DNA of 64,000 bases. Origin: Terriglobales bacterium (GTDB lineage: Bacteria > Acidobacteriota > Terriglobia > Terriglobales > Acidobacteriaceae). Positions 15,094 to 56,171 of this stretch are shown piece after piece. The first letter of the stretch is position 1. The number at the start of each line of letters is the position of its first letter. The notes under the pieces were generated by a model that was given only the letters and a program-made list of their open reading frames with translations, had not been told where the DNA came from and searched no databases. The translations under genes and the position numbers were made by a program. The DNA lies in assembly GCA_016185365.1 (NCBI GenBank), contig JACPNP010000017.1, positions 1 to 64,000 of the forward strand, written 5' to 3'.

Positions 15094-15112
15094 TGTCATT
15101 CCGAGCGAGCGG
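15094..15112. repeat. Repeat family A, partial copy (A1)
   Basis: TTGTCATTCCGAGCGAGCGG matches the left half of the palindromic element seen at 19373, 19752, 20104 (inverted) and 56120. The right half (CGAGGAATC) is missing and a family B element follows at once. Confidence 0.7.
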
Positions 15113-16327: not shown

Positions 16328-19696
<3,369 letters not shown>

Positions 19697-19749
19697 TATC
19701 CCTTCCACTCCTCGCTCTTGCTTTGAAAGGGCGCCACTAGGCACCCCAA

Positions 19750-20103
19750 TTATTTGTCATTCCGAGCCCGGCCCTTCGGGCGAGGAATCTGCATTGCCTC
19801 TGTCAACTCGTCATACCAATGTTCGGCCAAGTCGGCCCACGCGGGATTCACCCTCGTGATCAATGCGATCTTCTTCGCTCTCCTCCACTTCTTGATCTCC
19901 GTTTCCCTCGCGATCGCGTTATTCACGTACTGGAACTCTTCGGAATATACCAACCGGTTTATGTTGTACCGCTTGGTGAAGCCCGCGATCTCTCCGCGCT
20001 TGTGCTGGTAGGCACGCACATGAATGCTGTTCGTCATCCCGATATAGAGGTTTCGTGACCGGCTCGCCATGATGTACACCCAGGACCGATATTCACGCCT
20101 CAC
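19750..20103 (-). CDS. GIY-YIG nuclease-like protein between carA and carB
   Basis: 117-residue single-domain GIY-YIG protein. The VYI...LYIG motif lies at residues 9-22, followed by Arg30, His34 and a downstream Glu (ARETEIKKW, 65-73), which are the usual catalytic positions. It starts with GTG exactly where the inverted repeat at 20104-20137 ends. Its last residues ([12 protein letters not shown]) and stop are encoded by the other repeat copy at 19752-19794. A gene bounded this precisely by inverted repeats suggests that gene and repeats moved together. Family members of this size are often annotated as UvrC-like or excinuclease-like, but there is no other UvrC domain. It splits the carAB operon. 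Confidence 0.88.
19752..19794 (+). repeat. Repeat family A, left end of the GIY-YIG unit (A3)
   Basis: ATTTGTCATTCCGAGC, then a CCCG...CGGG hairpin, then GAGGAATCTGCAT. It encodes the last residues of the GIY-YIG protein on the minus strand. Confidence 0.88.
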
Positions 20104-20137
20104 ATGCAGATTCCTCGCTCTGCTCGGAATGACAAAT
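20104..20137 (-). repeat. Repeat family A, right end of the GIY-YIG unit (A4, inverted)
   Basis: ATGCAGATTCCTC, short centre, GCTCGGAATGACAAAT: the inverted counterpart of A3. It abuts the GTG start of the GIY-YIG gene. Confidence 0.88.
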
Positions 20138-20183
20138 CAATGATCAATCCATCGTTCTCACGGACGCGCCTTCATACGCGCCA

Positions 20184-56119: not shown

Positions 56120-56171
56120 TGTCATTCCGAGTGAGGTCGCGCACTTTGCGACCGAATCGAGGAATCCCTTT
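56120..56171. repeat. Repeat family A, full solo copy downstream of tRNA-Lys (A5)
   Basis: Begins TGTCATTCCGAG, has an inner GTCGC/GCGAC hairpin, and ends CGAGGAATCCCTTTG. The ends match the copy inside carB. It may have used the tRNA 3' side as a safe site. Confidence 0.85.

Follow-up and report, generated by a model that had tools for sequence, protein, structure and literature searches.

A GIY-YIG nuclease gene framed by inverted CGTC/TGTC hairpins between carA and carB: a probable copy of a widespread small mobile unit

In a Terriglobales bacterium (assembly GCA_016185365.1, contig JACPNP010000017.1), a small nuclease gene lies between carA and carB and is framed by inverted palindromic repeats. 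The question raised by this locus is whether gene and repeats together form an element that moves. The window, henceforth the whole 64,000-nucleotide stretch of DNA that was analysed, likely holds one copy of a widespread mobile unit, in which an Slx1-like GIY-YIG gene is placed between inverted CGTC/TGTC REPs and its nuclease acts on the hairpin. The features concerned are listed below.

16328..19696, minus strand: carB, the downstream neighbour
19375..19424, plus strand: further REP copy with tail GAGGAATCCCTTT (CCCTTT subtype), in frame inside carB
19747..20142, no strand assigned: REP-GIY-REP unit including the 21-nt outer inverted repeats, from the inverted-repeat search, with limits set by analogy with moved copies elsewhere
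19750..20103, minus strand: gene for a 117-aa GIY-YIG nuclease with its catalytic residues intact, starting at GTG and ending at TAA
19755..19794, plus strand: 3' framing REP hairpin TGTCATTCCGAGCCCGGCCCTTCGGGCGAGGAATCTGCAT, TGTC tag outward, encoding approximately the last 14 residues
20104..20134, minus strand: 5' framing REP hairpin TGTCATTCCGAGCAGAGCGAGGAATCTGCAT, TGTC tag outward, its tail abutting the start codon
20214..21341, minus strand: carA, the upstream neighbour in the operon

The 117-residue open reading frame matches PF01541 (GIY-YIG) in Pfam with E = 9.8e-14, the sole domain above the cut-off, and is intergenic, on the same strand as carA and carB. It is framed by two nested inverted-repeat pairs, an outer pair of 21 nt at 90% (19747-19767 and 20122-20142) and an inner pair of 15 nt at 100% (19780-19794 and 20104-20118), which correspond to the outer and the inner arms of a single REP-like hairpin at either end, of the form TGTCATTCCGAG...GAGGAATCTGCAT. 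The initial annotation had described a gene framed by inverted palindromic repeats whose ends match as inverted copies with different centres. A complete hairpin was indeed found at each end, and the centres differ because the loops of the two hairpins are of unequal length. The hairpins are in opposite orientation, with the TGTC tag at the outer end and the tail facing the gene. As had also been described, the start codon abuts one copy: the GTG at 20103 directly adjoins the 5' hairpin. The companion statement, that the last residues and the stop codon lie inside the other copy, holds for approximately the last 14 codons but not for the TAA stop (19750-19752), which falls just outside the TGTC tag though still within the 21-nt inverted repeat. 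On the two strands of the window together, exact TGTCATTCCGAG occurs five times, as opposed to ~0.01 expected from base composition, and the framing hairpins are therefore not a product of chance. Two more of these exact matches lie at 15094-15105 and 56120-56131.

The window protein displays the GIY-YIG fold with the conserved Y, Y, R and E residues, and Y10, Y20, R30, H34, E67 and N86 were invariant in an alignment of 35 sequences. Its AlphaFold model has a mean pLDDT of 85, with low confidence only in the hairpin-encoded C-terminal tail. The closest solved folds are UPF0213 BH0048 (1zg2 and 1ywl are listed among the nearest, UPF0213/Slx1-like) and Slx1, a branched-DNA nuclease. A structure-specific Slx1-like nuclease might plausibly recognise a hairpin whose foot is unpaired, and the predicted nuclease may cut at the palindrome.

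Homologous GIY-YIG genes were identified in 57 of 120 relatives. A search for inverted repeats around such homologues had been proposed in the initial annotation, and 73 GIY-YIG genes, the window's genome being among those sampled, were compared for framing with 555 ORFs of the same loci that served as controls, using a strict motif of TGTCATnCnGA hairpins converging on both sides. Both-side converging hairpins were found at 45 of the 73 GIY-YIG genes versus 2 of the 555 controls (OR 444, p = 9e-47). When no motif was imposed and the two flanks were simply scored for their best inverted repeat, 86% of GIY-YIG genes scored at least 28 versus 3% of controls. The two GIY-YIG genes detected by Pfam in the window's genome are both framed by converging hairpins. 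None of 19 uvrC genes, which have the same catalytic domain, was framed, nor was either of two small genes from a different GIY-YIG subclass; framing is therefore a property of this GIY-YIG subclass rather than of small genes or GIY-YIG domains at large.

The same preference was observed at 80 further loci from many phyla, where an inverted-repeat score of at least 40 was reached in 65% compared with 2.8% of controls (p = 1e-34). The arms at these loci are mostly [CT]GTCAT...ATCCA, with a stem of its own in each genome. GIY-YIG genes were also found in sequence records of plasmids and megaplasmids from Alpha-, Beta- and Gammaproteobacteria, Bacteroidota and Cyanobacteria, most of them CGTC/TGTC-framed by hairpins of differing sequence, and in Novosphingobium pNL2 the framing hairpins are identical at 31 of 31 bases on both sides.

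REP abundance follows the GIY-YIG gene. Across the 120 genomes searched, which include that of the window, the median count of TGTCATNCYGA was 83 with a clear GIY-YIG homologue versus 11.5 without (p = 1e-14), the counts being 80 versus 23 within the family (p = 2e-7) and 105 versus 8 in other families, with shared ancestry only partly controlled. REP subtype in turn follows the protein subclade: the correlation over readable matched hairpin pairs was modest across genomes (Mantel rho 0.22, p = 0.0005, shared ancestry again being only partly controlled) and reached rho 0.80 over 14 pairs within genomes. ATCTATG tails pair with the TNRSKTLYTG subclade, and CCTAGGTTT or CCTTGGTTT tails pair with NPSRTLYTG and the related subclade.

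These pairings bear on the view that the GIY-YIG gene is passive cargo: another enzyme, either a RAYT or an IS transposase, would spread the CGTC REPs, and two of these REPs would sometimes carry the gene between them. Other transposases were suggested as possible movers of CGTC REPs by Di Nocera et al. 2013 (PMC3733652), nine relatives with at least 50 REPs have no clear GIY-YIG homologue detected, and a Y1-type transposase-like ORF is present in two carA-carB gaps. Cargo should vary, however, and a single nuclease subclass is framed across phyla; the high-scoring controls that were inspected were mostly ORFs inside REP clusters, together with two IS-type transposases and an additional GIY-YIG copy. 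Because REP subtype also co-varies with nuclease subclade, and no tyrosine transposase gene with CGTC REP flanks was found in the 2013 study (PMC3733652), passive carriage is considered unlikely.

It is the segment between and including the two hairpins that turns up at new sites. Oricola indica contains three unit copies in one genome that are 87-93% identical from hairpin to hairpin (~390-440 bp) and have unrelated flanks. Five Mesorhizobium units, two of them in one genome, conserve CTTCGTCATCC...GGATGACGAAG with small variants and are likewise surrounded by unrelated sequence, their different sites including Ku-LigD, dnaQ-secB and a position beside glmS (gene names read from translations). 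Two species of one genus (L057 and L096) have the unit in common but not its flanks, and the matching locus of the first species, when located in the other, holds neither GIY-YIG gene nor hairpins. Empty sites were also identified: Azospirillum lipoferum 4B carries a unit between sufB and sufC, a gap of 56-130 bp without a hairpin of this kind in four other Azospirillum, and the dnaQ-secB site occupied in L218 is empty in at least one, probably three, other Mesorhizobium. No clear excess of direct repeats, as would mark a target-site duplication, was observed outside 59 framed units, only the first base outside the tags being clearly alike on the two sides. The REP-GIY-REP unit is likely a widespread class of small mobile element present in many phyla.

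Other arrangements of the unit were noted. The inverted repeat of two Mesorhizobium loci (L216 and L218) extends tens of bases past the CGTC tags in GATTAGC-type arms, as if the unit had been inserted in, or were carrying, a larger palindrome. Tandem duplications of all or part of the GIY-YIG unit, with REPs between the copies, are present in L081, L069 and L056. The sufB-sufC gap also holds a unit in Shinella (L146, from a reading of the flanks), as it does in Azospirillum (L136). In L045 and L085 the GIY-YIG frame runs on into an enoyl-CoA hydratase-like frame downstream, which results in an apparent fusion protein. Odd GIY-YIG "fusions" with HsdR and TrmH are noted in the 2006 survey of the superfamily (PMC1564403), and these, like the fusion observed here, may represent read-through of an inserted unit.

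The empty sites also bear on a homing-type selfish gene, whose nuclease would cut at existing REPs so that repair against a REP-GIY-REP copy fills a lone REP or dimer, the REPs themselves spreading without the nuclease. GIY-YIG nucleases are classic homing enzymes, and dispersed dimers often share the outward-tag layout of the unit ends (25 tag-out versus 13 tag-in pairs, an excess that is only moderate). The empty Azospirillum and Mesorhizobium sites, however, contain no REP, which leaves homing into a pre-existing REP unsupported, and unit copies share no flanks beyond the hairpins. Homing of this type is accordingly regarded as improbable.

The 5' 12-mer, allowing up to one mismatch, gave 110 matches in the window's genome versus 5 for the reversed control, and is in this respect interspersed in many copies as CGTC REPs are. 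The tails of these abundant dispersed REPs are mostly GAGGAATCCCTTT (CCCTTT subtype) as opposed to GAGGAATCTGCAT at the unit, and descent of the dispersed repeats from the window unit is disfavoured by this tail sequence; the window copy is therefore probably not their source. The GAGGGACCTTGGTTT subtype of the second unit was found at five places in the genome. The suggestion in the initial annotation that the element spreads was borne out for the class, with its moved copies and empty sites, but not for the window copy, whose subtype is present in the genome only at its own two ends and at one one-mismatch site. The window copy is intact but may be idle or old. The REP copy inside carB (19375-19424) adds ~26 residues compared with a relative and resembles the Rickettsia palindromic elements that lie inside genes.

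The carA-carB gap seems to be a permissive landing site. GIY-YIG genes are also present beside carB in four further genomes (G054, G055, G059 and G008) and, in another family, in G112. A Y1-transposase-like (RAYT-type) ORF lies in the gap in L118 and L123, and in L118 it adjoins the GIY-YIG unit. When five carB-side genes (the window's included) were placed on a tree, at least four changes were needed, which argues against one origin for all of them, yet the AU test did not reject a single clade (p = 0.10); the carB-side genes may reflect repeated landing or, in part, vertical descent. That the GIY-YIG gene is simply a vertically inherited resident of the carA-carB gap, beside which ordinary REPs accumulated as terminators or by chance, draws support from the AU result and from at least five other genera in the sample that have a GIY-YIG gene next to carB. 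It is nevertheless very improbable, because most relatives have no GIY-YIG gene there, the two window hairpins are of matching subtype, and framed homologues occur at many unrelated sites in other genera; residency is thus disfavoured for the class and could hold for the recent history of the window copy.

The favoured explanation remains a mobile unit whose nuclease acts on its hairpins, and the following sequence of events is proposed. The nuclease would recognise its cognate hairpin, extruded or single-stranded, by the stem and the unpaired tag, and would nick or cut at the hairpin foot. Host repair or replication would then copy the hairpin-bounded segment to other sites, and segments that had lost the GIY-YIG gene would persist as dispersed single REPs and REP dimers. 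The GIY-YIG nuclease would fill the role that RAYT has for GTAG REPs, although it is an unrelated enzyme and is not known to rejoin strands. It has no HUH motif or Y1 tyrosine, and strand joining would therefore have to fall to something else.

The GIY-YIG enzyme is the best candidate for spreading the CGTC/TGTC hairpin repeats. A broader proposal, to which we give an even chance, is that of a transposase-free element class built on a minimal, structure-specific GIY-YIG nuclease, which would cut the hairpin ends of its own unit and leave the copying of the segment to host repair. This class would account for CGTC/TGTC REPs across many phyla, among them the rep-like repeats found in Neisseria and in alphaproteobacteria as well as the Rickettsia palindromic elements. 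Should the nuclease prove to move hairpins, DNA would be spread by a single cutting domain with no transposase.

CGTC REPs were defined by Di Nocera et al. 2013 (PMC3733652), who noted TGTC variants and dimers, included the Rickettsia palindromic elements, described the group as apparently having no dedicated transposase and considered that its spreading enzyme may have died out. The hairpins described here share with that superfamily a terminal unpaired CGTC/TGTC tag (TGTC, outermost, in both window hairpins and CGTC or TGTC at other loci), a stem starting AT, interspersion and frequent dimers. Several of its taxa, namely Novosphingobium, Azospirillum, Sinorhizobium, Neisseria and Bradyrhizobium, are also among the GIY-YIG loci. 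The window stem starts AT but is bulged and has a longer loop and a CTGCA tail, as compared with a norm of an 8-9 bp stem, a loop of 4-5 nt and a CCA tail; proteobacterial loci fit that norm well, for example ATTCCCGCG..GGGAATCCA. The 2013 paper makes no mention of GIY-YIG and Acidobacteria are missing from its CGTC list, a 2025 REP survey (PMC12306157) does not mention GIY-YIG, and no paper linking GIY-YIG to REPs was found in the openly searchable literature (subscription papers were outside the scope). For CGTC-type REPs, a large bacterial hairpin class, a specific candidate enzyme is now named in many phyla, with enzyme-repeat pairings and multicopy examples.

Among GIY-YIG proteins, the closest likeness is to the UPF0213/Slx1-like stand-alone proteins, which are minimal single-domain enzymes and the nearest solved folds. 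In the survey of Dunin-Horkawicz et al. 2006 (PMC1564403), bacterial GIY-YIG proteins of the stand-alone kind fall near Slx1; its accessible part gives no repeat association for them and lacks the word "palindrome", whereas the window gene is REP-framed. Free-standing homing endonucleases of the I-TevI type share the nuclease superfamily and selfish spread. In contrast to them, the window protein is a single minimal domain with no NUMOD, linker or additional DNA-binding domains, its gene is neither intronic nor an interruption of its own target, and the unit is hairpin-bounded with empty sites that hold no repeat.

The initial annotation had set the element apart from IS elements and from REP/RAYT systems, and both distinctions were upheld. 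IS elements and MITEs are likewise multicopy, with short terminal inverted repeats around one gene, but the GIY-YIG unit has no transposase, showed no target duplication at the 59 framed units, and has ends that are hairpins also existing alone. The likeness to REP/RAYT (REPtron, REPIN; TnpA-REP, Y1 HUH) is closer, with an enzyme gene framed by inverted hairpins that have a 4-nt unpaired tag, and with the same hairpins dispersed as non-autonomous copies and dimers. The window enzyme, however, is a GIY-YIG nuclease (PF01541 only) and not a Y1 HUH transposase, and the tag is CGTC/TGTC and not GTAG. The unit is built like a REPtron around another enzyme, and its enzyme and tag place it outside REP/RAYT.
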